DNA of 32,266 nucleotides from positions 1-32,266 of the IMG/VR virus record IMGVR_UViG_3300046517_000144; one strand, written 5' to 3'. This DNA comes from a virus. Under the pieces are notes generated by a model. That model made no database searches and was not told the DNA's origin. It saw nothing but the letters and a program-made list of their open reading frames with translations. A program made the translations under genes and the position numbers. Of this stretch, positions 5,733 through 32,266 are shown one piece after another (within the stretch, counting starts at the first letter, position 1; each line of letters begins with the position of its first letter).

Positions 5733-5923
5733 TGGCTAAGCATAATGTTTCTCTCTATCGCGCTTTGCATCATCTTCGCCACGGCGGCCTTCACAAGGCT
5801 TTGGGAGTTAAAGAAGGGGACACTATTCCCGTCAATAAAATCCACGAAGCCGCAAAAAAGGGCGGGCACCTCGGGCACATGGCTAATTTTGCCTTGACTA
5901 TGCGCGGCTTCAAAAAGAAATGA
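5732..5923 (+). CDS. Small basic His-rich helical protein
   Basis: A 63-residue protein beginning MAKHNVSLYRALHHLRHGGL and ending MRGFKKK. It is basic and His-rich like its upstream partner but predicted helical throughout (KIHEAAKKGGHLGHMANFAL). The start overlaps the upstream stop by one base and the TGA stop overlaps the next ATG (ATGA), placing it in a tightly coupled trio. No function can be assigned. Confidence 0.65.
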   Translation: MAKHNVSLYRALHHLRHGGLHKALGVKEGDTIPVNKIHEAAKKGGHLGHMANFALTMRGFKKK

Positions 5924-6171
5924 AAGAGTTTATAAAGAATGTTTTTTCTGATAATGGCATTCCTAGTAGCTCTAGAATTCTAGCCGCCACTCATTCTTTA
6001 GCTGCTGTATTTGCGTTGTTGTTTTATGTAGTCAAAACACACAGTATGCCAGATGGAACAGCGCTCGGTGGACTAGGCGCTTTCGCCACTTCGCCGTATC
6101 TAGTTAACAAGGCCGGATCCGCAATAGAATCATTTTCTAAAAAAGATAAAACGCAAGACGGAGATAAATAA
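5920..6171 (+). CDS. Small membrane protein, holin candidate
   Basis: An 83-residue protein with a 4-base ATGA overlap with the upstream gene. A hydrophobic span covers about residues 20-42 (AATHSLAAVFALLFYVVKTH) and a weaker second one about 48-66 (GTALGGLGAFATSPYLVNKA). The C-terminus is charged (FSKKDKTQDGDK). Size, two spans and a charged tail fit small phage holins, but no endolysin is found nearby, so the call stays tentative. Confidence 0.6.
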   Translation: MKEFIKNVFSDNGIPSSSRILAATHSLAAVFALLFYVVKTHSMPDGTALGGLGAFATSPYLVNKAGSAIESFSKKDKTQDGDK

Positions 6172-6455
6172 TGAGTCACCAGGTAGTGCTTTCATGGACG
6201 GCGTCACCGGATGCCGTTGCGGGGTATAATATTTATCGTGGTACCAATCCTCCAGGAAACGAGGGCTCTTCTCCGATTAACCCCGGCCTAGTAGCCGGAA
6301 CGACGTTTACAGATACGAATGTTCTTGCAGGACAGAAGTTGGATTACGTTGTTACGGCAGTTTCGGCTACTGGAGTGGAGTCAATCCATTCTAATGAAGT
6401 AGTCGCAACGGTGCCACTTCAACCCCCCTCAAACCTCGTGGCAGTCGTTTCTTAA
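6171..6455 (+). CDS. Fibronectin type III domain protein
   Basis: A 94-residue protein made of one FN3 beta-sandwich: the VVLSWTASPDAVAGYNIYRG strands B-C, the TTFTDTNV strand, YVVTAVSATGVESIHSNEV with the conserved Tyr and the SNEV signature, then a linker QPPSNLVAVVS that looks like the start of a second FN3 repeat but ends. FN3 domains in phage virion proteins are thought to aid weak binding to cell-surface carbohydrates. A run of six C at 6423-6428 lies near the end. A virion-surface role is inferred. Confidence 0.8.
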   Translation: MSHQVVLSWTASPDAVAGYNIYRGTNPPGNEGSSPINPGLVAGTTFTDTNVLAGQKLDYVVTAVSATGVESIHSNEVVATVPLQPPSNLVAVVS

Positions 6456-6493
6456 CATCATTAAAAAGATTTTTCAATTCTGGAAGTGGTAAA

Positions 6494-6561
6494 CACCGAA
6501 CAGAGGTTCGTCTAGAACGGTGCTATTTTCATACAGGTGCTCTGTCAAGGACGTATGAAAA
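6494..6561 (+). promoter_or_regulatory. Two-hairpin leader upstream of 6571
   Basis: CACCG (6494-6498) pairs with CGGTG (6518-6522); inside it GTTC can pair with GAAC on either side. A second hairpin pairs TTTTCATAC (6526-6534) with GTATGAAAA (6553-6561), a perfect 9-base stem. The sequence from 6536 to 6570 resembles the leader before 3420. The role may be RNA leader control, processing, or a phage promoter. Confidence 0.45.
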
Positions 6562-6570
6562 AGAGATAAC

Positions 6571-6888
6571 GTGAAGATACCTTATTGGTACCTTTTGCTA
6601 GGCCCCACCTTTATTTATTATCTTGGTGGCTTATTTAACTTAGGCACTATGGCTTTAAATAACGGCCAGATGCCTGTGTTGATGCCTGCCGATTTAGCTG
6701 CTCAGGTAGGTTTTGATGCTAGACACGTTCTAATGACACACTCAACTCATTTGAAGTTCTTTTGTGATTGGCTCAATTTAGGCGAAGGAATTGCTAGTCC
6801 CGGAGATCTTCTAGTTTGGCTGGGAGATTCAATAGCCGTGACGTCATGGGCGTTGTGGGCCGCGTTAGTAATTAAAGACTCTAATTAA
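6571..6888 (+). CDS. DUF5317-like membrane protein
   Basis: A 105-residue protein with a GTG start. Hydrophobic spans lie near residues 5-28 (LLLGPTFIYYLGGLFNLGTM) and 80-100 (LLVWLGDSIAVTSWALWAAL). Between them are NGQMPVLMPAD, a His-containing turn (ARHVLMTHSTHL), a WLNL segment and a SPGDLL motif. That order (Asn-Gly-x-Met-Pro-Val, Thr-x-Leu, then Ser-Pro-Gly-Asp before the last span) matches what I recall of DUF5317, a bacterial membrane family without known function. The start overlaps nothing annotated but follows a structured leader. Confidence 0.6.
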   Translation: MKIPYWYLLLGPTFIYYLGGLFNLGTMALNNGQMPVLMPADLAAQVGFDARHVLMTHSTHLKFFCDWLNLGEGIASPGDLLVWLGDSIAVTSWALWAALVIKDSN

Positions 6889-6895
6889 GGAAGAT

Positions 6896-7141
6896 ATGTC
6901 AGCAGGCAAATCAGCATCAGACATACTAGCTGGCGCGAAAGAAGCTGTTCAACATGCGGATGAGACGGAGCGATTAACTCGCCCGTCTCCTACTCCGGTT
7001 CCTGAAGGTTTAAAATCCCCGAAACATGAATACTCAGACGCTAGCTATTCAATGGTTAAGAAAGATAAAAAGCCAGGAATTTCTGAAGAGCTGGACGCCA
7101 AGCAGGGGATGCTAGACAAAGCAAAACAAGCACTACAATAG
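6896..7141 (+). CDS. Hypothetical protein upstream of terminase
   Basis: An 81-residue hydrophilic protein. It has a helical N-terminus (ASDILAGAKEAVQHADETER), a Pro-rich turn (RPSPTPVPEGLKSPK) and a helical C-terminus (EELDAKQGMLDKAKQALQ). It lies directly before the large terminase, the usual place for a small terminase subunit, but it is short and lacks a visible helix-turn-helix, so that role is not supported. Function unknown. Confidence 0.6.
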   Translation: MSAGKSASDILAGAKEAVQHADETERLTRPSPTPVPEGLKSPKHEYSDASYSMVKKDKKPGISEELDAKQGMLDKAKQALQ

Positions 7142-7148
7142 AGGGGCT

Positions 7149-9179
7149 ATGTCGTTCAATGACGATCCGGTAAAGAAAGCGGCTTATAATAAAGAATATC
7201 AACGAAAAGTAAAAGAGCGAAAGAAGTTATTTGAAGAAGCGGCCGAGAAGGACAAGCAAGAAAACGGAATTAGGTACCGTTCTGAAGCTTTGTCCTACGA
7301 GGATTTAGTTAAGATTTTCCACGGCGAACCTTATAAGACTGTAGAGGACGAAGAAGAGGAAGATACCAGAACGCGAAAGGTAAAGAAGCCCAAGCGTATT
7401 AGTCCGTTCGATACTGAGATACTAGGTCGAACTGTGACGTTTCAAGAGTGGCTAGATCTTCGAGATAAAGCCAGGAAGGATTTATTCTGGTTCGGCACGG
7501 AAGTTCTGAAACACGATTTTCTTCCTCGTGTCCATCAGCCAATTTGCGATGTCTTTGTAAAGAAGAATTTCGACGGGGCGTTTCCGAAGGGCTATACTGT
7601 CGGTAACGTCCATGATGCAATTAAGATTCAAAGCAGAACCGACGCTAATGGATATCCTACTCGAGAAGCTCTGATTCTGGATCCTAGAGGATTTTATAAG
7701 TCCACCATCAATCGTGTAGATTGCGTCCAGTGGATTATTAACGTCCCGGACATCCGTATTCTTTTGATTACTGGTGAGCACTCATTAGCGAAAGCGATGA
7801 TGCGAGCCATTAAGGGGTATCTCTGCCTTTCAAAAGGTGAGACGCCTACAGACTTTCATCTTCTGTTCCCTGAATACGCCCTGACCGGCAGAGATAGTAC
7901 GACCGGGACGCCTTTTACAGTTCCTTGCCGAAAGCATAACCAAACTGAGCCCACCTTCTGGGTCAGGCCGATTGGTGGAAACCTTTCCGGTTGGCACTGT
8001 GATATTAAGAAGGGCGATGACGTCATTACAGATAAAAACGCCAATACGGATGACGTCCGAGAAGAACTTAACAAGAAATACAGCGGGTCTAGGTTTATCG
8101 TAGATAGCTGGGGCTTTACGGACACGATTGGTACTAGATACTTCGGTCCTCCGAGTCCTGATTGGTACGGTTTGAAACTTAAACTTGCTGCGGATTCGTC
8201 TGATTCTGCTATTAAGGTTTGGCATCGCGCCGCTTGGAACGTCCTTCCTGAATACATTGAAGTTCCTTTAAGAGATCTAACTGAGGATATGGTCACGTTG
8301 ACCTTTCCGGAGAAAGTCTCGTTTAGCGAGCTTCGCGCTGAACTATTAGATAATGAAAACCTATTTAGGTGCCAGCGTTTAAACGAACCTCGTGGTTCAG
8401 ATGAAGATAGTGGCTATAAGGTTTCGTTTGATGAACAATCTCTACAAAGGCACCTTTACCAGAAAGAGGCCGTCCCTCAGATAGGCGAAATCTTTATTTG
8501 TTGGGATTGGGCTCCTACGGCTACAAGTCGGTCTGATTACTCAGCTGGTGTTGTTGCTAAGGTTTATAAGTGTCCAGATGGTCGGGATGGTTTAGTTATC
8601 CTTGAGGTCGCCTGCGATAAGTGGACACAGAGCGAATTAGCTTATCAAATCATCGCGTTGAATAAGAAGTGGAATCCTAAAAGGACGATGGTTGAAAAGT
8701 CAATGGGCGCGGAGGGTTTGGCTGTTTACCTTCATGACCTTTCTATTCGCTATGGCGTCACGCTGGATATCTTCTGGCGAGCACCGTCCGTTGAAATACA
8801 CGCTAAGCGTTCACGTATCAAGGGACTCGAGATTCTTCTTAAAGAAGATCGTCTGTGGTTTGTGTCCGGTCATTGGATCCAACAGACTTTCGATCAACTG
8901 ACAAGATATACAGGTGATACGAAGAATCGCGGTCGACATGACGATATCCCGGATGCAATGAGCTATTTCCCGATAACGTTCTTTTCTCTTTCTTCAATGA
9001 CCATTAAAGACCAGGCCGCTGCTAGGATGTATTTTGAGCAAGAGAAAGTCAGAGCCCAAGTGAAGGCTCAGTATGACAGGATATTTGGTAAACCGCCCAG
9101 CCAACAACTGTATACGCTGCCTTCTGATAATCCGGAAGCCTCAGGCTGGCGTCCTGTATGGCCGGTTAAAAAGAGTTAA
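7149..9179 (+). CDS. Terminase large subunit (TerL)
   Basis: A 676-residue DNA-packaging motor and nuclease, acting at the portal during head filling. The ATPase domain shows a variant Walker A, PRGFYKST, at about residues 179-186 with Lys184, and a likely Walker B/acidic pair around KKGDDVITD (288-295). The nuclease domain has the RNase H-like triad: Asp453 in CWDWAPTATS, Glu516 in MVEKSMGAEG, and the HDDIPDAM motif (Asp598/599, Asp602). The length is somewhat above typical TerL because of a charged N-terminal extension (about 1-95). All key residues are present, so it should be active. It is followed nine bases later by the portal gene. Confidence 0.95.
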   Translation: MSFNDDPVKKAAYNKEYQRKVKERKKLFEEAAEKDKQENGIRYRSEALSYEDLVKIFHGEPYKTVEDEEEEDTRTRKVKKPKRISPFDTEILGRTVTFQEWLDLRDKARKDLFWFGTEVLKHDFLPRVHQPICDVFVKKNFDGAFPKGYTVGNVHDAIKIQSRTDANGYPTREALILDPRGFYKSTINRVDCVQWIINVPDIRILLITGEHSLAKAMMRAIKGYLCLSKGETPTDFHLLFPEYALTGRDSTTGTPFTVPCRKHNQTEPTFWVRPIGGNLSGWHCDIKKGDDVITDKNANTDDVREELNKKYSGSRFIVDSWGFTDTIGTRYFGPPSPDWYGLKLKLAADSSDSAIKVWHRAAWNVLPEYIEVPLRDLTEDMVTLTFPEKVSFSELRAELLDNENLFRCQRLNEPRGSDEDSGYKVSFDEQSLQRHLYQKEAVPQIGEIFICWDWAPTATSRSDYSAGVVAKVYKCPDGRDGLVILEVACDKWTQSELAYQIIALNKKWNPKRTMVEKSMGAEGLAVYLHDLSIRYGVTLDIFWRAPSVEIHAKRSRIKGLEILLKEDRLWFVSGHWIQQTFDQLTRYTGDTKNRGRHDDIPDAMSYFPITFFSLSSMTIKDQAAARMYFEQEKVRAQVKAQYDRIFGKPPSQQLYTLPSDNPEASGWRPVWPVKKS

Positions 9180-9188
9180 AGGAATATA

Positions 9189-11312
9189 ATGAACGAAGAT
9201 CTGTCCGTGCAGGCTAATGATTTATATTTAACACCTGCGTCAGAAATAACGGAAGATAATGCTCATATAGATAAAGAAACTAATACGATGAGCTTCGCTG
9301 ATGAAGCGGCTCTGAAATTAGTTCTCGACGATACAAATACCGCTGACAATTACATCAACATAAACCAGTGGGCTTCTGGGTGGACATTAGCAGATACACT
9401 GTATCAAAGTCCGGCCGCTGCAACTGCGTTTGACGGATCGAACGTCGCTCAGTCTAACGTTCCTAAGTTTATTTTGAGTAATCACATCAGCTCAATTGTA
9501 CCTAAGCTGATGGGCGGCATTTTTTATGAAGATCCCCCGTTTCTTCTTCGCCCCCGTCCCGGCGTATCTCAAGATATAATTCGTGCCAAAACCGCTTTAT
9601 TCAGCGCTCAGCTTTGGGATATGCGGTTTGAAGAAGAGTCTGAGCGTGCGCTAGATCAGATGGCCCTTTTCGGCACATGCATAATGAAATTTGGGTACCT
9701 AGAGTATACCAAGAAAGAAAAAAAATATACTCGTAAAGAAGATAAGCAGCCGATTCCGAATCCTCTAGGCGGACCGCCGACTTTAGTAGATACGCCAGGC
9801 TCCGATGAAGTAGTCATTGAATATTTTGACAAACTGATTTCTCGTCCTTGGATTAAATATTGTGATATCCGTAAGGTATTGGTTGATCCAGGCTGTCGGT
9901 ACGGTGATATCCAACGTGCTCAGTGGGTTGTTTATCGGGATTATGCGACTTATTCTGATCTTGAAGCCCTTCGTGGCGTAGAAGGTTATGTAATCCCTAG
10001 CGAAGAAGTATTGAAGTATATTTTCCTAAACGGCATTACGTCCGGAATGGAAAATATCTCTTTGACTATTCCTGAAGGCATGCTTGGATATCTCCAGCAC
10101 GCCGTTCCTGCTAACCGCCAGACATCTGCGGATCCCATGAAAGCGCCGATGGAGATTTTAGAGCGCTGGGATAAGGAACGAGTTATAGTTGTTTTGTCGT
10201 TCAACGGCCATAATGTCCTGATTCGTAATGAAGCAAACCCGTACGGTAAGATTCCTTTTTATTCCGCAAACTGGCGTAATATTCCTGACTGCTTTTATGG
10301 TCAAGGGCTGGGAGTCCTAATCGGCAGTGAACAACTCGTCGAGCAGGGTGTCACGAACTTGGCTTTGGATCTTCTTGCTTATGGTTTGCAGCCTACCGCT
10401 GTTAGGAAAAGCGGCTTTAATGCTCCTACACAGAACACACGTTGGAAGCAAGGGGGTATAATTGAGGTTGATGAAGACGTCGACAAGGCGTTCAAATTCC
10501 TCGAAATGCCGCCAATTCCGGCGGGCGCGTGGGCAGCTATCCAGCAGGCTCAATCTAGCGCAACGGCATCCTCCGGTGCCAACGAGCAGACCGTTCAGGG
10601 CGTCGGTTCCGCAGGTATCAAAACCACAGGAATGAGATCAGGGACTGGTGCTGCGGCCGTTATTCAGGCTAATGCAAGTCGGTTAGATGGTCCGGACAGT
10701 CGGTTTATTCGTCAGATTTTTGTTCCGTGGCTGTATCAGATGGACACGATGAACAACGACCTTATTCCGACTAAGGTTCTGCGGGACATTCTCGGGGAAA
10801 CCTTCGATAAGAAGGACGCCGCATATAACGTCGATCACATCGATTTCCGTGAAGCCAAATTTGAATATGAAGTTCTAGCGGGCTCGCATCTTGGCGCTAA
10901 GAAGGAAATGGCCCAGGCTTTGCCGATTATTATCCAGCTTCTGAACAATCCTACGTTTATGACTAACGTCACGGACGGCGGGTATATGTTTGATGGCATA
11001 GCTATCTTTAAGGCATTTACAGACGCCGCCGGTTGGAAGTTTAGTCAGCCTTTCTTGCGTCCCATGACGCCAGAAGAGAAGCAAAAACATGATGCTAACT
11101 CTCCTTCCGCCTTACAACAACGTCAGCTTCAGGCACAAGGCCAGATGCAAGATAAGCAATTCCAACAACAGCAAGTTCTAGAAGACCAGAAGCAATTAGG
11201 CAAGGCCGGAGCGGAGGCATTACGCCAAAGTATTCAGCATTCTCTAGACATGGAAATAACCGGAGAGCCCAGCAGCAATCCTAAAGGCTTTGGTAGTGAA
11301 ACGAATTTATAA
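9189..11312 (+). CDS. Portal protein (head-tail connector)
   Basis: A 707-residue protein directly downstream of TerL, where portal genes are normally found. The middle matches portal features: ISSIVPKLMGGIFYEDPPFL near residues 100-120, ALDQMALFGTCIMKFGYL (about 155-172), IRKVLVDPGCRYGDI, and FYGQGLGVLIGSEQLVEQGV (about 365-385), the stem/wing segment common to portals of short-tailed phages. The C-terminus is a Gln-rich helix (QQRQLQAQGQMQDKQFQQQQ), as in portal barrel regions. The protein forms a dodecameric ring through which DNA enters and leaves. Length is within the range of large podovirus portals. Confidence 0.9.
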   Translation: MNEDLSVQANDLYLTPASEITEDNAHIDKETNTMSFADEAALKLVLDDTNTADNYININQWASGWTLADTLYQSPAAATAFDGSNVAQSNVPKFILSNHISSIVPKLMGGIFYEDPPFLLRPRPGVSQDIIRAKTALFSAQLWDMRFEEESERALDQMALFGTCIMKFGYLEYTKKEKKYTRKEDKQPIPNPLGGPPTLVDTPGSDEVVIEYFDKLISRPWIKYCDIRKVLVDPGCRYGDIQRAQWVVYRDYATYSDLEALRGVEGYVIPSEEVLKYIFLNGITSGMENISLTIPEGMLGYLQHAVPANRQTSADPMKAPMEILERWDKERVIVVLSFNGHNVLIRNEANPYGKIPFYSANWRNIPDCFYGQGLGVLIGSEQLVEQGVTNLALDLLAYGLQPTAVRKSGFNAPTQNTRWKQGGIIEVDEDVDKAFKFLEMPPIPAGAWAAIQQAQSSATASSGANEQTVQGVGSAGIKTTGMRSGTGAAAVIQANASRLDGPDSRFIRQIFVPWLYQMDTMNNDLIPTKVLRDILGETFDKKDAAYNVDHIDFREAKFEYEVLAGSHLGAKKEMAQALPIIIQLLNNPTFMTNVTDGGYMFDGIAIFKAFTDAAGWKFSQPFLRPMTPEEKQKHDANSPSALQQRQLQAQGQMQDKQFQQQQVLEDQKQLGKAGAEALRQSIQHSLDMEITGEPSSNPKGFGSETNL

Positions 11313-11336
11313 AAAATAGAAATAGAAAGGACAACA

Positions 11337-11675
11337 ATGGCTGAAAAAGAAATGCCCCTTTTGATGAAAGAACTTACTATCGGTGAGAAAATAGCATTAG
11401 GTCAAGTTAGTCGTCTTCCAGGTTTTCAGGTTATCGTTAAACTTATTGAAGCTGGATGCAATAAGGCCACGGCGGATACAATTAATCTTAACCCAGAAGA
11501 TACGAATTACGATCAGCTTCTTAAAGCTAAGCATAACTATTCTCACAGTATTAATAAGTTTACCAGGCTTGTAAGAAACTCCATCAATTATCATGTCGAA
11601 CACGGCGTGGTAGAAGATGCCGAAGAACAAGAAAAGGCAAAAAAGTTAATAGATCAGCAGAAAGAATCTAAGTAA
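11337..11675 (+). CDS. Hypothetical protein between portal and scaffold
   Basis: A 112-residue, mainly helical protein (KELTIGEKIALGQVSRLPGF, KLIEAGCNKATADTINLNPE) with a charged C-terminal tail (KKLIDQQKESK). It lies between the portal and scaffold-like genes and is probably an assembly or minor head factor. No motif identifies a function. Confidence 0.65.
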   Translation: MAEKEMPLLMKELTIGEKIALGQVSRLPGFQVIVKLIEAGCNKATADTINLNPEDTNYDQLLKAKHNYSHSINKFTRLVRNSINYHVEHGVVEDAEEQEKAKKLIDQQKESK

Positions 11676-11702
11676 GACAATCCAATTTCTAGGAGTTTAA
11701 AA

Positions 11703-12926
11703 ATGAGTACCGCACCTATTACGAGGGAGTCCCTTCTCTCGATGTCTGAAGAAGATCTAAAAAAGATTGTAAAAGATCCGTCCAAGCTAGCCGAGATCAA
11801 CGCTTTCCTTTCGTCGCCCGAAGGCCGAGGAATGATTGCCGAGACAGTGACGGAAGCAACGACTGAACTGACAGAAGAGAATACTGAAATTGATCCGGTC
11901 GAAGTTGAAAGACAAGCAGCTGAAGCTAAGGTTGCAGCCGAGAAGGCTGTAGCAGATCAAGTTGAAGCCGAGCGTAAAGCTGAAGAAGACGCCGCTTTGG
12001 TTGCTGCTGGTATTACGGTTTATCGTGACGCTTTCGGAAACATCACGAAGCTTATTCAAGAGTATCAAGCAGATGACGAGAACGGTAATCCCATCGGTCG
12101 TTCTACGCATCTTGAGGCTCGCAATTGGGCTGAACTCGCCCGAAAGCAGAAGGAAGCGCATACTCAGGCGACTCGTGCTTTCCATAGGTTGAAGGACCAG
12201 AAAACTACATTTAAGAAGCCTACGGCTCCTATTCAGATTCCGGACGTTCCACTGTTGTCTGAAGACGAGCGAATTAAAGCCGCTCTGGATCTAAACAGCG
12301 AAGATGAAACCGTTGTTCTTAAGGCGGATAGAAAACTTCGCGCTGATCAGATACTTAGAGACCAGCGTTTAGAAGCTATCCAGAAAGAAGAACATAGGCA
12401 GGAGTACGCTTCCGCCGAATTTAAACAACGTCATATTCACGATTTTAATCCCTGCAATGCTAACGCCGCGTTTATATCCAACTACCTTAAGGAAAATAAC
12501 CTTACGTGGACAGTTGATAATCTCGAGCTAGCCTTTGCAGCGACGGAACCGCAACTGGTACCTGTTCAGGTATCGGTTGCAGAAGAAACGGCTCCAGCGG
12601 CTAATCCCGTTGAGCTAAAAACACAACCACAAGCTTTGGTGACGGGAATAAACCCACAACCTGAAATCGTGGTTCAAGAACCAAAACCAACGCAGGTAGT
12701 CACGCCTAATCCGCAAGCTACGCCGCGTCGGGGAGTCAACGGGGGCCTTGTGCCTGGTCAGTCTACTGGACTGAAACCGGCGGGTATCCCGGCAGGACTC
12801 ACTATGAAAGAGATCATGAAGTGGACCTCCGATCAGATGAAGATGGAGCGGAAGAATCCCGCCCGTCGGGCAGAGATCGATAGGGTGATTACGGCTTATA
12901 ACAAAGCCAGAACTTCACGGATCTAA
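11703..12926 (+). CDS. Scaffold-like head assembly protein
   Basis: A 407-residue protein just before the major capsid gene, the usual scaffold position. Residues 60-105 form a strong charged Ala/Glu/Lys coiled coil (VEVERQAAEAKVAAEKAVAD). A second helical region covers about 190-245. The stretch around 240-275 (KQRHIHDFNPCNANAAFISN) is a compact module with conserved-looking aromatic residues. A Pro/Gln linker precedes a helical C-terminal end (MKEIMKWTSDQMKMER) that is well suited to capsid binding. Scaffold function is inferred from location and composition; it might also be a minor head protein. Confidence 0.6.
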   Translation: MSTAPITRESLLSMSEEDLKKIVKDPSKLAEINAFLSSPEGRGMIAETVTEATTELTEENTEIDPVEVERQAAEAKVAAEKAVADQVEAERKAEEDAALVAAGITVYRDAFGNITKLIQEYQADDENGNPIGRSTHLEARNWAELARKQKEAHTQATRAFHRLKDQKTTFKKPTAPIQIPDVPLLSEDERIKAALDLNSEDETVVLKADRKLRADQILRDQRLEAIQKEEHRQEYASAEFKQRHIHDFNPCNANAAFISNYLKENNLTWTVDNLELAFAATEPQLVPVQVSVAEETAPAANPVELKTQPQALVTGINPQPEIVVQEPKPTQVVTPNPQATPRRGVNGGLVPGQSTGLKPAGIPAGLTMKEIMKWTSDQMKMERKNPARRAEIDRVITAYNKARTSRI

Positions 12927-12939
12927 ATTAAGGTGATAT

Positions 12940-13965
12940 ATGAGTGGACCGAATCCCTCAGCACAGAACGTATCAAATACCCTTACGGCCCAGGCGATTC
13001 TTTTTGACAAAGAATTGATCCCGAACCTGAAGGGCGAAACGGATGCCTTTGTTGCTTGCGCTGAACGGCGCGTGCAGCCTTTGCATGCCGGTATTAACCG
13101 GACTTTCTTCCAATACAACACGCTGGCTGGCGATACTACCCAGTCTGCTGACGGTACGGTTGGAAACCCGGAACTCATCACTCAGATCAGCGCTCCGGCG
13201 CAACTGGGTGAGTGGAACAACTACACGAACTTCTCTTCGTTTGCCATCGCGGCTTCGATTGACGAGTTGGTGGGAAATTCGGCCGTCGAGCTTGGTTACC
13301 AAGCTGGTCAGTCTATTTCCGAGTTGTATTCCGCAGTGGCCGATAGCGCGTCTGCCGTTGACTCTAACGTCAACCAGTCCGCTCTTCTGTCCACCCCGTT
13401 TACTCTTGACCTCGGCACCATTCGTGAACTGAAACAGCAGTTGGTTGCTGATGACGTTCTGCCTTGCAAAAAGGGTAAATTCATGGGCGCAATCAGCCCG
13501 AACGTGTTGGGAGATATCTATAACGCAACGACAGTGAACAACTCTATCGTTGATTTGTGGAAGTATGCCAACATGGAAAAGTTCGATAAAATGGGTGGCG
13601 CTGACCAGACTATGGAAATCGAACTGCCGGGCACGAACATTGTGTTCCGTCAAACTCCTTTCGTTACCAAGACTTCGAACTACAGCGGTAGCGGAAAGAT
13701 CGCCTATAGAACTTACGTCTTTGGGAATTATGCTCTCATTGGTGTTTGGCTCGAGGTGCCGGGAGATACGGATCTGGATGAGGGGGACTGGCGTACTATC
13801 GAATGTCGGGTAGTGACGGATGCTCCTCCTTCTTCTTTTGATCCAACTGCTACAATCGGGGGATGGGCTTCGTATAAGTTTCATCAAACCGTTACACTTC
13901 CGCCCGCTACTGGCGTAAATTCGCAGAGGATCAGATATATTGACAGCGTCCCCGCGATTCAGTAA
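12940..13965 (+). CDS. Major capsid protein, N4-gp56-like
   Basis: A 341-residue HK97-fold-type capsid protein. Family-like features include the N-terminal arm, the AERRVQPLHAGINRTFFQYN segment, the long acidic spine-helix region (ELGYQAGQSISELYSAVADS), FMGAISPNVLGDIY, and the C-terminal signature GGWASYKFHQTV...RIRYIDSVPAIQ typical of the N4-gp56 capsid group. Codon use looks strongly biased (AAC, GCT, GGT, CAG favoured), as expected of the most abundant virion protein, and this bias also creates a long antisense reading frame that is not a gene. It builds the icosahedral shell around TerL-packaged DNA. Confidence 0.88.
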   Translation: MSGPNPSAQNVSNTLTAQAILFDKELIPNLKGETDAFVACAERRVQPLHAGINRTFFQYNTLAGDTTQSADGTVGNPELITQISAPAQLGEWNNYTNFSSFAIAASIDELVGNSAVELGYQAGQSISELYSAVADSASAVDSNVNQSALLSTPFTLDLGTIRELKQQLVADDVLPCKKGKFMGAISPNVLGDIYNATTVNNSIVDLWKYANMEKFDKMGGADQTMEIELPGTNIVFRQTPFVTKTSNYSGSGKIAYRTYVFGNYALIGVWLEVPGDTDLDEGDWRTIECRVVTDAPPSSFDPTATIGGWASYKFHQTVTLPPATGVNSQRIRYIDSVPAIQ

Positions 13966-13985
13966 CTAAATAGCAAATAAAATTC

Positions 13986-14014
13986 TTGATACTAGTTGCA
14001 ACTTGTATTAAGAT
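13986..14014 (+). promoter_or_regulatory. Possible sigma70-type promoter before the endonuclease
   Basis: TTGATA (13986-13991) is separated by 17 bases from TAAGAT (14009-14014). The first matches the -35 consensus in five of six positions and the second the -10 in four of six. It sits in the gap between the capsid and endonuclease genes and would drive the latter if real. Confidence 0.35.
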
Positions 14015-14020
14015 TAGATT

Positions 14021-14049
14021 GGGGGAGCATACCGTAAATATGCTCCTCT
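14021..14049 (+). terminator. Strong hairpin after the capsid gene
   Basis: GGGGGAGCATA (14021-14031) pairs with TATGCTCCTCT (14039-14049), an 11-base stem with two G-T pairs and a 7-base loop. No T-run follows directly, so it may be a stabilising 3' end, a processing site or a weak terminator for capsid mRNA rather than a full intrinsic terminator. Confidence 0.45.
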
Positions 14050-14074
14050 GATCATACTCTTTTACGGAGAGAAC

Positions 14075-14545
14075 ATGAGAAAAATCGGTTTAAAAGCGCT
14101 AACGAAATCAGAAAGAAATAAAAGATTTTATGATAACCATAAAGAATCTGAATTAGCTCGTAATAAGCAATTCTACCGAGATAATAAAGACACTCAAAAA
14201 ATTCGCCATCGCAATAACCGCCATCATATAAAACAAGACTGGTTCGACGTTAGATTGATGGAGCAAGATAATAAGTGTGCTGTTTGTTTAGAAGAATTTA
14301 CCGATACGCCTCACATAGATCATAACCACGAATGTTGTAAACCATCTACTAGTTGCGAAAGATGTCGACGGGACCTTCTTTGTAAAGACTGTAACCTGGG
14401 CCTCGGTCGTTTTAAAGATAATACAGAAGTCCTAGAGCGAGCAATCCAATATCTAAAGCGCCATAAGGAAAACGAATGGAAGACATGCGAAAGTACGTCT
14501 CAGGCTCAGACGTCCGAGACCCCTTTAAACATCGCCACGATCTAA
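14075..14545 (+). CDS. Endonuclease VII-like HNH nuclease
   Basis: A 156-residue protein of the recombination endonuclease VII family (beta-beta-alpha metal fold). Zinc ligands are Cys68 and Cys71 (CAVC) and Cys103 and Cys106 (LCKDCNLGLG). The catalytic motif IDHNH gives Asp82, His83 and His85, with Asn107 after the second CxxC. The family includes T4 gp49, which cuts branched DNA, and many stand-alone homing nucleases. The N-terminus is very basic. The last 22 or so residues, past KRHKENEW, are read from the start of the next gene in another frame, so the gene looks inserted right before that start. A/T-richer codons than the capsid gene fit acquisition by transfer. Confidence 0.88.
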   Translation: MRKIGLKALTKSERNKRFYDNHKESELARNKQFYRDNKDTQKIRHRNNRHHIKQDWFDVRLMEQDNKCAVCLEEFTDTPHIDHNHECCKPSTSCERCRRDLLCKDCNLGLGRFKDNTEVLERAIQYLKRHKENEWKTCESTSQAQTSETPLNIATI

Positions 14546-27738: not shown

Positions 27739-29823
27739 ATGGCAGTTACTGATATTTCGCAATTGTCACCGGACTTGCAGAAGTCTATTTCGACTCTTCA
27801 GCCCGGTACAGTTCCGACTACACAAGGCGAGAACTCACTTCAAACTGCTCCTGGAACGCTTCCCGGTGGCGCGGATACAACTGGTCTAGCTGCGCCCGCC
27901 GCAGGCAGCTTCGGCGATACTCTCCAGAAGTCATTGATGAATCCTGAGAACGGCCAACCGTTGACGTTTAACGAGCGCTTTAAACAGGGCGTCAATGCGG
28001 CTGCTAAGGCTACACCCCCTCAGGAACAGGCTAAACCCGGTGCGTGGGCTCGCCAGATATTGGCTGGTGCCCAACACGCTCTAGGCGGGATTGAAGATTC
28101 GCTATCAGATGCAGGAGCGGCTGCGAAGGAATCGCTTCCAGGTGAAGGCGCTCTGGCTGCTATCGGCAGGATCCGCGCCGCACAGCAGGCACGAATTCAA
28201 GGTCAACAGAAGTTCCAGACGGAACAGCAAAAGGCGCAAGCGGATATTGCTGCTACTAACGTCCAGAAAGTTTATCACCAGGCTTTACTTCATCAACTAG
28301 ATGATACTACAAACGAAAAAGATATCAAGTATGGTCAGGAACAAGTTGAATCAATGACCAGTCATTTGACATCTTTAGGTTTGAAACCAGGAGAAATCGT
28401 CGCTAAAAATGTTACAGAAGCCCAGCTTCAAAAGGCTGTTGATGACGGCACCTGGAATCCCACTGAAGAGACTAAGTACCCGACCGGTAGTTTTGAGGTT
28501 CCTGGTAAGAAGGACGATCAAGGCAATCCACTCCGTCAAAAGACGTACACGATTGTTAAGGTTCCACCTGAGCAGACTCTCACTAAGGATATGGTTGATA
28601 GAGTTAATAAGTTTGTTCCAGGAGTTAAGTTCGATCCAGATAAGCCGCCGACTATGCCTGGTGCTACTGCGGTATCGCTTATGGAACAGGCTCATATGGG
28701 CGAGACGTTCCAAGACCAGCGTGACCAACAGATAGCTGCGGCTGATGCGGTTAAGATTAAAGAACTGGATCAGAAAGATCAAATTGCCGCTAAAGAAGCC
28801 GATGGCAGATTGGCTAAAGATCCGGAATACATTAAAGCGCAAGGTCAGGCGCACAGTAATTTATCAGGCATGTACGATTATTTAAAATCAAAAGATCCGC
28901 AAGCTGCGGCCGATTTGATTACGTCCAGGGGTGGTCCTAAGAATTTTGATGCAATAGTTGAAAAACAGACAGCCGATCTCAGGAAGAATCAGGAAGACGC
29001 CGAAAAAGAACGTCACGACCGAGCAGTAGAGATTATAAGCGCCACGAAAGAAAAAGATAAGGCGGATAAAGAGAATTCATATGTCGGAGACGATAACGCC
29101 AAGACGCCTGAAGACTACCTCAAGAGCTTGAAGCCTAATGAAGCTGCAATTGTGCAATCTATCGCTTCTGGTCATCTTGACGCAGGACGAATGGCTTATC
29201 TTCTGGCCCGCAACCCTAATCTAGTATCTGCGGTTATTCGATATGATCCTAACTTTGATAATAGTAAGGTTGCCGGATACGCTAAGAACCTTATTGACTT
29301 TACGAGTGGTAAGGTCGGGGAATCTCTGAAGGCGGGCGCAACTGCTATGAACCACTTGCGGGAGTTGTATGATCTTAATACCGAATGGAGTCGCATGCCA
29401 GGAACGTCTGATCATCAGAAATACGAAAATAAACTCGATACTGTGGCATCCGAACTAGCGGGATTTTACGGAGACACAACTATTCCGGCAATTGAGGGTA
29501 TTAAAAAGACTTTAGGGGCTACGTTTAATCGTGGGGCAGCTATACAAACGCAAGCAAATTCAATGGCCGATAGGTATGATAATATCAAACAGCAGTGGAT
29601 AGCCGGAGCACCGTCAGATAAATACTACGGTCTGATGCCGGACATTAATCAAAAGGCTAAAGATGATCTTCAGTATGTAAGAAATGGCGGAAAGTCTCCG
29701 GTCGGTAACGGCAGCGGTAAGGCTGTCAGTCTAGCCGCTGCTATGGCTTTGCCTATAAATAAGGGAAAGACGGAAGCGCAAGTCCGAGCTGATATCCAAG
29801 CTCACGGACACCAGGTACAATAA
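27739..29823 (+). CDS. Candidate internal virion protein B
   Basis: A 694-residue protein with AAGGAG upstream. It is mostly charged helix with long coiled-coil stretches (QRDQQIAAADAVKIKELDQK, KNQEDAEKERHDRAVEIISA). There is a Pro/Thr-rich N-terminus, a Gly/Ala segment (QILAGAQHALGGIEDSLSDA) and a globular C-terminal third (MNHLRELYDLNTEWSRMPGT). There is no signal or enzyme motif that I can see. By order it equals the middle ejection protein of short-tailed phages. Its stop shares a base with the next start. Confidence 0.6.
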   Translation: MAVTDISQLSPDLQKSISTLQPGTVPTTQGENSLQTAPGTLPGGADTTGLAAPAAGSFGDTLQKSLMNPENGQPLTFNERFKQGVNAAAKATPPQEQAKPGAWARQILAGAQHALGGIEDSLSDAGAAAKESLPGEGALAAIGRIRAAQQARIQGQQKFQTEQQKAQADIAATNVQKVYHQALLHQLDDTTNEKDIKYGQEQVESMTSHLTSLGLKPGEIVAKNVTEAQLQKAVDDGTWNPTEETKYPTGSFEVPGKKDDQGNPLRQKTYTIVKVPPEQTLTKDMVDRVNKFVPGVKFDPDKPPTMPGATAVSLMEQAHMGETFQDQRDQQIAAADAVKIKELDQKDQIAAKEADGRLAKDPEYIKAQGQAHSNLSGMYDYLKSKDPQAAADLITSRGGPKNFDAIVEKQTADLRKNQEDAEKERHDRAVEIISATKEKDKADKENSYVGDDNAKTPEDYLKSLKPNEAAIVQSIASGHLDAGRMAYLLARNPNLVSAVIRYDPNFDNSKVAGYAKNLIDFTSGKVGESLKAGATAMNHLRELYDLNTEWSRMPGTSDHQKYENKLDTVASELAGFYGDTTIPAIEGIKKTLGATFNRGAAIQTQANSMADRYDNIKQQWIAGAPSDKYYGLMPDINQKAKDDLQYVRNGGKSPVGNGSGKAVSLAAAMALPINKGKTEAQVRADIQAHGHQVQ

Positions 29824-32266
29824 TGGCTGATCAAGATCCGTACGCCGCGATTGCTACACCAGTTCAGTCTGCCTTAGCTGCGCCTCAACCGTCAGCCAGT
29901 CCTGCGGCGCAAGCATCTAACCCTAACGACCCTTATGCCAGCATCGCTACACCAATTCAAGCTCCTCCGCCCGCTCAAAATCCTAACGAGCCGTTAGGGA
30001 CGTTTGGTAAGATATTTCTAGGTCCTAATACAGCCGCCGGTGCCCCGCTTCCTGATACCTGGAAAGAAGAAGGCTCGGGTGTCTCGGATATCATGCACGG
30101 AGATATCAGTCAAGGATTTAATAAAATCGTCCACGCTGAGACTCCGCATGTTATTTCCGGCAGTCCTATTGAGAAGTTGATTCAGCAATTTAAACCTGAT
30201 TTTAAAGGCAGCATGAGTCCTGAACAGGCTGAATTCCAAGACCGTCAGGTGCATGCTGGACGAGATAATCCCCTATTCGACGCTGCACAGGCTATTGATA
30301 AAGATCAGCATCCTGTTCTGAAGGCGTTGACTGAAGCCGCGCAAAGTATGACTAGTCCTGGAAACGTCGCTACTATGATTGCGACAGGCGGTATGGGATT
30401 AGTAGAATCTCCTAAAGCTCTGGCGGTTGCAAATCGGCTATTAAGCGCCGGTTTTACGGCGAATACGGTAGGTCAAGCATATAAGCATTTAAAGGCTTTT
30501 AAAGAAGCGTATGATAAACACGATACCAACGAAGCTTTATATCAATTGACGCATGCAGTTACGAGCGGCACGATGGCGTATCTTGCAGGAACGCACGCCG
30601 CAGGAAAGCCGGTCGGTGAAGCTCAGCCGTCTACTGAATTGGGCAAGATGGCTCAGGAAAGGGTAGTTGAGCCAATAGCGCAGGGCGTCAGTAAGGCGGC
30701 AAGCGCTACAGGCGAAGCTGTCGTTAATGCTGCTGGAAATGTCGCTGAAGGCGTCAAGAAAGGGCTCGGTATAGGCGACGACTTCTATACTACTGTCAAG
30801 AAGATTAGCCCGCCATCTAAAGGCGCTGCTATGGAGTATAATAACAGTCTGAAGACAGCTGAGCCCCAGCTGCGGGAAGTTTTCCGGCAGAATCCGGACG
30901 TCCAGACGCCTAAGGATATGCATGACGCAATCGATGAGCATATCAAACAGACGGAAGCCCGTTTAGGCGCTAAGGCTGCTGAATTTGAAGGCAAGCCGGA
31001 AGCTCAGATGACCGGTATCGAAAGCGAAGTCAGAGCTGATCTCGAGAAGGCCTTTGACGAGAATAAAGGCCAATATAAGCCGGAAGAGAAAGAAAAAGCC
31101 ATCCAGTCAGTAATGAGCCATCTCCTTCAGGAAGGGCCCGGACAACTTGAAGGTACAAAGACAACGAGAGAGCCCAGCCTGGCGGAAGCGGAAGGCGTCC
31201 GTCGTCGATTTAACGATGATACCCAGGCCAGTTTCGGTAGTAATGCTCCGGCCGTACCTGCTGCGGAAGCATTCGCTAAGAAGGCGGCTGCGAATTCTCT
31301 CCGGCAAGCTATAGATCAGAAGTTTGATGATCTTGGCGTCACAGATGTCAAAGAGTGGCGTAAACAGGAAGCCGGATTAATCGATGTCCGAGATCAGATT
31401 GCTAACGCCGTTAAGAAGTCTGAAGAAATGGGTAATTATAACGTCTTCGAATCTCTAACTAAACAGCTAGGTTGGAAGACGCTATTAGGCTTTGCTGCAG
31501 GAGCGGGCGGAGGTGCGGAGACAGGTTTGGCTGGGGCGTTGGCCGCTTCCGGATTAGGCGCAGTGGCGGATTACATCCGTGACCTTAAATTAAACCCTAA
31601 TCGTAAAGTAGCTAAGGCCTCTAAATTAGCTAATGAACCTGGTCCGACTGGCGCAGCGCTTCCTAGAGAAAAACCACCAACCCAATCCGGACCGTCTTCA
31701 ACCGCTCCTCCTGCGGCTAATCCGTCACCCGCTTCTTCAACCGCTCCTCCTGCGGCTAATCCGTCACCCGCTTCTTCAACCGCTCCTGCAGAATTCACCC
31801 CGATTAAGAGACCAGTCGGAGGGTGGTTAGAAAAAGGCCCAGAAGAAATTAAATCTCCGAAAGATTTAATGATTCGTGATAAAGCTAAAATGCACTATGA
31901 AGGACAAGTTTATACAGACGAAGGATTACGAAAAACATTTAATATTCCGTCATCTGTATCGTTAAAAGATTTAGTAAATAAAGGCGTACTTGATTATGAT
32001 TCTAAAACAGGCGGGTACACCTTATCTAAACCAAACCCTACTCAGGCTACCGGGGGGTCGGACCAAGGTAGCATAGATTTAGAAACTAAATACGAAATAC
32101 CGACAGAACCAGTACAAGACGTTTCTAAAGATAAGGTTCCTCCTGGTTTCTTTCCTCAGGACGTTCATACGCATGAATGGGGCCATACTACTAACGCCGC
32201 GTTGGAAGGATGGGGTACCGCTGGCATTAAAAGCGATTTACATGAATCTCTAGGACCTAGAACTGC
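29823..32266 (+). CDS. Large ejection-type protein with HEWGH motif (partial)
   Basis: The frame opens at ATG 29823 and stays open to the window end (814 codons), so the 3' end is missing. The N-terminus repeats DPYAAIATPVQ (residue 5) as DPYASIATPIQ (residue 36). Helical Ala/Glu/Lys-rich regions follow (VVNAAGNVAEGVKKGLGIG, HIKQTEARLGAKAAEFEGK). A Gly/Ala-rich hydrophobic segment lies at about 551-580 (WKTLLGFAAGAGGGAETGLA). A 13-residue Ser/Pro/Ala repeat runs from 625. Near the end is HTHEWGHTTNAALEGWG, with His784, Glu785 and His788 as an HExxH zinc-peptidase motif. It is probably the largest ejected protein, with a peptidase domain to cut a wall or envelope target; the third metal ligand is beyond the window. 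Confidence 0.7.
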   Translation, partial: MADQDPYAAIATPVQSALAAPQPSASPAAQASNPNDPYASIATPIQAPPPAQNPNEPLGTFGKIFLGPNTAAGAPLPDTWKEEGSGVSDIMHGDISQGFNKIVHAETPHVISGSPIEKLIQQFKPDFKGSMSPEQAEFQDRQVHAGRDNPLFDAAQAIDKDQHPVLKALTEAAQSMTSPGNVATMIATGGMGLVESPKALAVANRLLSAGFTANTVGQAYKHLKAFKEAYDKHDTNEALYQLTHAVTSGTMAYLAGTHAAGKPVGEAQPSTELGKMAQERVVEPIAQGVSKAASATGEAVVNAAGNVAEGVKKGLGIGDDFYTTVKKISPPSKGAAMEYNNSLKTAEPQLREVFRQNPDVQTPKDMHDAIDEHIKQTEARLGAKAAEFEGKPEAQMTGIESEVRADLEKAFDENKGQYKPEEKEKAIQSVMSHLLQEGPGQLEGTKTTREPSLAEAEGVRRRFNDDTQASFGSNAPAVPAAEAFAKKAAANSLRQAIDQKFDDLGVTDVKEWRKQEAGLIDVRDQIANAVKKSEEMGNYNVFESLTKQLGWKTLLGFAAGAGGGAETGLAGALAASGLGAVADYIRDLKLNPNRKVAKASKLANEPGPTGAALPREKPPTQSGPSSTAPPAANPSPASSTAPPAANPSPASSTAPAEFTPIKRPVGGWLEKGPEEIKSPKDLMIRDKAKMHYEGQVYTDEGLRKTFNIPSSVSLKDLVNKGVLDYDSKTGGYTLSKPNPTQATGGSDQGSIDLETKYEIPTEPVQDVSKDKVPPGFFPQDVHTHEWGHTTNAALEGWGTAGIKSDLHESLGPRT
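31695..31787 (+). repeat. 39-base exact tandem repeat
   Basis: Two identical 39-base units (31695-31733, 31734-31772) and 15 bases of a third, in frame in the last gene, each coding SSTAPPAANPSPA. Identity at silent positions points to recent slippage or unequal exchange. It forms a flexible linker between the hydrophobic segment and the C-terminal peptidase-like region. Confidence 0.9.

Follow-up and report, generated by a model that had tools for sequence, protein, structure and literature searches.

M41 peptidases are best known as the proteolytic component of FtsH machines, which are driven by ATP and in which the M41 domains act as hexamers fed by the ATPase. The zinc in M41 enzymes is held by an aspartate together with two histidines (PMC12994072). 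Among the modules of polyvalent proteins, zincin-like peptidases occur most often, and their proposed role is to process the carrier or to target the host (PMC5512222). A literature search on phage ejection and polyvalent proteins retrieved no description of an M41- or FtsH-like domain in them. The last gene of the viral record analyzed here appears to encode such an arrangement: judged from the sequences and predicted structures of its relatives, a motor-less M41-like domain lies in a polyvalent protein, a reading to which we assign a probability of about 80%.

The window, meaning the whole stretch of DNA that was analyzed, is a 32,266-base viral record, a fragment of a soil phage with nearly all genes on the plus strand. 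The terminase and portal genes are recognized by PHROGs (Table 1), the major head protein gives a weak match only, and tail protein genes come after that. The cultured Tunturiibacter phage Tunturi_3, a podovirus infecting Acidobacteriota, has a portal 35% identical to the one encoded here; similarity to N4-like portals is distant. The last gene is part of the late structural region and adjoins the gene of a likely internal protein. Its open reading frame (29823..32264, plus strand) shows 814 amino acids with no stop codon up to the record end, and the long N-terminal region has no match in Pfam or PHROGs. The first-pass annotation, made from the window sequence, ascribed an ejection-protein composition to this protein; gene order and the Ala/Pro-rich linkers fit that view, which is a soft statement that makes ejection likely at most.

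Table 1. Positions of the features discussed, numbered from the first base of the window.
Feature	Positions	Strand	Remark
Terminase large subunit	7149-9179	+	PHROGs match
Portal	9189-11312	+	PHROGs match
Preceding gene, 694 aa	27739..29823	+	Adjoins the last gene on its 5' side
Gene for the polyvalent protein, 814 codons of its 5' part	29823..32266	+	Open at the record end
N-terminal region, ~aa 141-640	30243..31742	+	Conserved in relatives, ~23-34% identity
Ala/Pro/Ser linker, ~aa 625-663	31695..31811	+	13-residue tandem repeat SSTAPPAANPSPA
M41-like peptidase domain, N-terminal third, from ~aa 759	32097..32266	+	
HEWGH, predicted zinc-binding and catalytic motif, aa 784-788	32172..32186	+	

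Identification of relatives relied on the portal. As direct queries, neither the window protein nor the preceding 694-aa protein retrieved relatives, the former from viral contigs and phage genomes. The portal retrieved 34 contigs; when the longer of these were queried with the window protein, five proved to carry the gene, and domain searches gave four more. The gene is thus present in nine related viral contigs, with complete reading frames of 1056-2822 aa (the L071 frame lacks its start, as the contig is cut there), and a homologue of the preceding gene lies immediately upstream in all eight contigs that reach that stretch. The domain was found neither by tblastn in annotated phages or plasmids nor by a pattern scan of bacterial and archaeal genomes, both searches being limited in sensitivity, and an HMM search of PDB sequences returned only noise.

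The translation of the last reading frame closes with ...VHTHEWGHTTNAALEGWGTAGIKSDLHESLGPRT, in which 31 residues run from the first histidine of HEWGH to the record end. The motif had been read correctly in the first-pass annotation, in letters and in coordinates, and it is conserved in the relatives. It is the sole HExxH across all six frames of the window, with 0.025 expected by chance from the composition of the reading frame; conservation in relatives is stronger support for the motif than this chance estimate. An HMM of the relatives from which the window row was left out recovers the last ~55 residues of the window at E 2.7e-10, the runner-up among 516 six-frame segments having an E of 0.4. 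When the two closest relatives are also removed, the window match is weak yet still the best (E 0.0028). Over aa 736-810 (~76 residues), the window protein and its closest relative are 58% identical. The metzincin form HExxHxxGxxH, already discounted for the window, where the sequence is HEWGHTTNAALEG, is equally absent from the 12 copies of the domain in relatives.

These 12 copies, each of ~185 aa, are distributed over the nine contigs, three of which hold two each. Both histidines of the motif and an aspartate ~90 residues downstream are invariant in every copy, as are several glycine, asparagine, arginine, and histidine columns. The third zinc ligand had been placed beyond the window, which agrees with the position of this aspartate; the accompanying guess of a glutamate is probably wrong, as the residue that aligns with the M41 ligand is aspartate in 12 of 12 copies. 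Relatives thus contain the HExxH motif together with the downstream aspartate, and the window shows HEWGH only. Because two thirds of the domain lie outside the window, we infer the window's own aspartate ligand, and likewise a complete and active domain copy, from the relatives.

Structural comparison was carried out on AlphaFold models of two relatives from branches ~30% identical, the window domain being cut short. The models of the closest relative (pLDDT 83.6, pTM 0.84) and the distant branch (pLDDT 82.9, pTM 0.83) both display an M41 fold. In Foldseek searches the leading rows are nearly all of the FtsH family, with a modest best E of 0.03 and probabilities up to 1.0, and the models match the peptidase domains of FtsH, AFG3L2, Yme1, and FtsHi. 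Alignment by VIA-align to residues 412-605 of Thermotoga maritima FtsH gives Z 13.2 with an rmsd of 2.6 A over 140 residues for the closest relative and Z 13.6 with 2.6 A over 141 residues for the distant branch, compared with Z ~3 for unrelated folds. High Z scores can arise by chance for helical models; here the high-scoring rows belong to one family, stand far above the remainder, and cover the whole domain. As VIA-align re-scores only the top ranks of Foldseek, the absence of other zincin folds from the results does not speak against them. The sole clear structural match outside the FtsH family is PDB 5iqj, a 131-residue Vibrio cholerae protein of unknown function (Z 6.8 and 7.6 with the two models), which is perhaps a stand-alone M41-like domain. 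The zinc-peptidase assignment of the HExxH core is supported by this fold and by the invariant His/His/Asp set. The first-pass annotation would have abandoned a peptidase had the completed domain lacked a third ligand and a peptidase fold; the relatives have the FtsH M41 fold and the invariant residue. It also suggested structure prediction from residue 660; the start of the domain is somewhat further on, near aa 759.

At the sequence level, the M41 relationship emerges from profile-profile comparison. Against a set of 11 M41 sequences, comprising residues 400-610 of Escherichia coli FtsH and ten diverse M41 domains, hhalign gives a probability of 95% (E 2.4e-8, score 58.0), with a range of 94-95% and E of 1e-7 to 2e-8 across runs. 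Column-shuffled templates that keep HExxH score 22 on average and 32.2 at most in 100 trials, against a real score of 55.9. In this alignment HExxH lies opposite HEAGH and AANEL opposite AAEE, and the invariant aspartate falls on that of FtsH TGASND. Six related phage records and Tunturi_3 contain nothing that matches Pfam PF01434 (M41) at E 10, and the domain is therefore labeled M41-like rather than a Pfam M41 member. Pfam detects no AAA family in the window protein or in eight relatives; with no AAA+ ATPase domain found, the protein is not an FtsH.

Relatives carry several unrelated domains in one polypeptide, which is the mark of a polyvalent protein; the window copy stops before that part. 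Pfam scores ART-PolyVal at 44.6 bits in the G005 protein, above a cut-off of 31.2, and identifies DUF7178 in the proteins of four relatives; phrog_17560 is also found in relatives. The L074 polyvalent protein (7889-14434) contains FtsK_gamma, a DNA-binding winged helix (50.8 against a cut-off of 30.6). A phrog_3170 module with the pattern HD[VLI][FL]GH ... T[ED]T[KR]GQ is present in L048 (11498-12088) and in the polyvalent proteins of L059 and L074; from its residues it looks metal-binding, and it has no match to solved sequences. An unnamed module of ~75 aa with FHDPxTGSTL recurs in the polyvalent proteins of L048, L050, L051, L059 (twice), L071, and L073, C-terminal in some. L071 additionally encodes a separate 494-aa reading frame (5744-7225, minus strand) with an HExxH of its own, HEYYH. 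At the same gene position in Tunturi_3, gp25 (L042 26674-29886) contains a different HExxH, QQGHELTHVWQNN, which we take to resemble the DUF4157 type; gp25 has no match to the M41-like profile and no Pfam family.

In the layout proposed for these proteins, a long N-terminal region would be followed by a motor-less M41-type zinc peptidase and then by variable modules separated by flexible linkers, this last part being seen in relatives. Zinc would be held by both histidines of HEWGH and the aspartate ~90 residues downstream, with the motif glutamate acting as general base. The phage probably packages the protein inside its capsid and injects it along with its DNA. A peptidase without an ATP-driven unfoldase would be expected to cleave flexible or unfolded segments, and the modules could be released by cleavage of the linkers before or after injection. 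The protein's own inter-domain linkers are the likeliest substrate, at slightly less than even odds, and a host protein is the next likeliest, a possibility given clearly less credence. Recurrent inter-domain motifs resemble cleavage sites (DLxTG in G001, TKQ in G003, and PQL in others); such dispersed linker motifs show no clear excess over shuffles. A motor-less M41 domain may be weak as a protease. A more speculative extension, held to be improbable on present evidence, is that the motor-less M41 lineage is an ATP-independent self-processing protease of injected phage polyproteins that frees modules in the host, with two-copy members pairing inactive HD and active HE copies.

The same modules bear on a host-directed role, in which the M41-like domain would, after injection, cut a specific host protein such as a defense or transcription factor; the first-pass annotation had likewise raised the disarming of a host protein. 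ADP-ribosyltransferase and DNA-binding modules alongside the peptidase are of the effector kind, and FtsH degrades regulators in bacteria; on the other hand, no target is known, there is no unfoldase for folded targets, and some copies are HD variants. An effector function is accordingly possible but rather unlikely.

The HD variants are central to another explanation, namely that the fold is retained for assembly or metal binding by a pseudo-protease, like the plant FtsHi proteins, which are without a working HExxH. The motif glutamate is kept in 8 of the 12 copies and replaced by aspartate in the remaining four (HDLAH), which form one clade and keep both histidines and the downstream aspartate. 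HDLAH occurs in the first copy of L071 (902-1441), L072 (10001-10540), L073 (10001-10534), and L074 (10001-10537). While L072 and L073 have a second copy with HELGH, the 2182-aa L074 protein contains the HDLAH copy alone; the lack of a second copy there indicates that catalysis is dispensable in some members. Judged by the motif, some members may therefore be inactive and have a structural or pseudo-enzyme role. As an account of the family as a whole, loss of catalysis seems doubtful, given HExxH in two thirds of the copies and in the window.

A further explanation is that the domain belongs to one of the zincin-like MPTase clades already described in polyvalent proteins, as in the N4 virion RNA polymerase, with a glutamate third ligand in the second helix. 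The carrier protein is alike and the HExxH is shared (PMC5512222), and the acidic residue of GGAAANEL, glutamate or aspartate in the 12 copies, occupies a possible place for a gluzincin ligand. The profile comparison speaks against it, as hhalign gives 0.5% to the N4 zincin (aligned from nine phages) and 95% to M41, with N4 representing one of 12 described clades. Pfam MPTase-PolyVal (PF18818) has no match in nine phages, though it misses N4 too, and the structure search returns M41. The published description of the clades gives a glutamate ligand and does not mention FtsH (PMC5512222). Membership in one of these clades is quite unlikely. The weakest explanation, an envelope-opening enzyme that cuts, for example, cell-wall peptides, was raised in the first-pass annotation and fits a gene among late structural genes beside a likely internal protein, but it is very improbable, since M41 enzymes to our knowledge cleave proteins and not peptidoglycan, domain scans found no cell-wall-binding domain, and the co-resident modules fit a polyvalent, probably injected protein.

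The M41-like domain in a polyvalent protein resembles several known systems in part. With the peptidase domain of FtsH, AFG3L2, and Yme1 (M41, PF01434) it has in common the fold (Z ~13), HExxH, the AAxE helix, the aspartate position, and the order of elements. In contrast with those enzymes, the phage domain lacks an AAA+ ATPase, is 15-20% identical and below Pfam detection, is variable in the stretch that leads from the first helix to the AAxE helix, includes HD variants, occurs in up to two copies, and is embedded in polyvalent proteins. Jumbo phages such as PA5oct likewise encode an M41 domain, but theirs are ordinary homologues, annotated as FtsH, whose peptidase domain shows 42% identity to that of E. 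coli FtsH. N4 virion RNA polymerase gp50 is a giant protein too, found in the virions of a short-tailed phage; it carries an HExxH zincin, and its phage has a distantly related portal. The two zincins are unrelated by profile. A mini-vRNAP search, which had no positive control and shows little, did not detect the N4 polymerase core in the relatives. Polyvalent proteins encoded by phages and plasmids (Iyer et al. 2017, PMC5512222) are likewise very long mosaics with peptidase, ADP-ribosyltransferase, and DNA-binding modules and at least one peptidase copy; their zincin-like MPTases form 12 other clades, of which only the N4 clade was compared by profile. The recurrence of the M41 fold without a motor in giant phage mosaics, tandem copies included, would add a peptidase type to the polyvalent set. 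A profile of the domain is useful to annotators, as Pfam, NCBIfam, and PHROGs currently miss it, and the family is a small system in which to ask whether M41 chemistry can work without the motor that drives FtsH.
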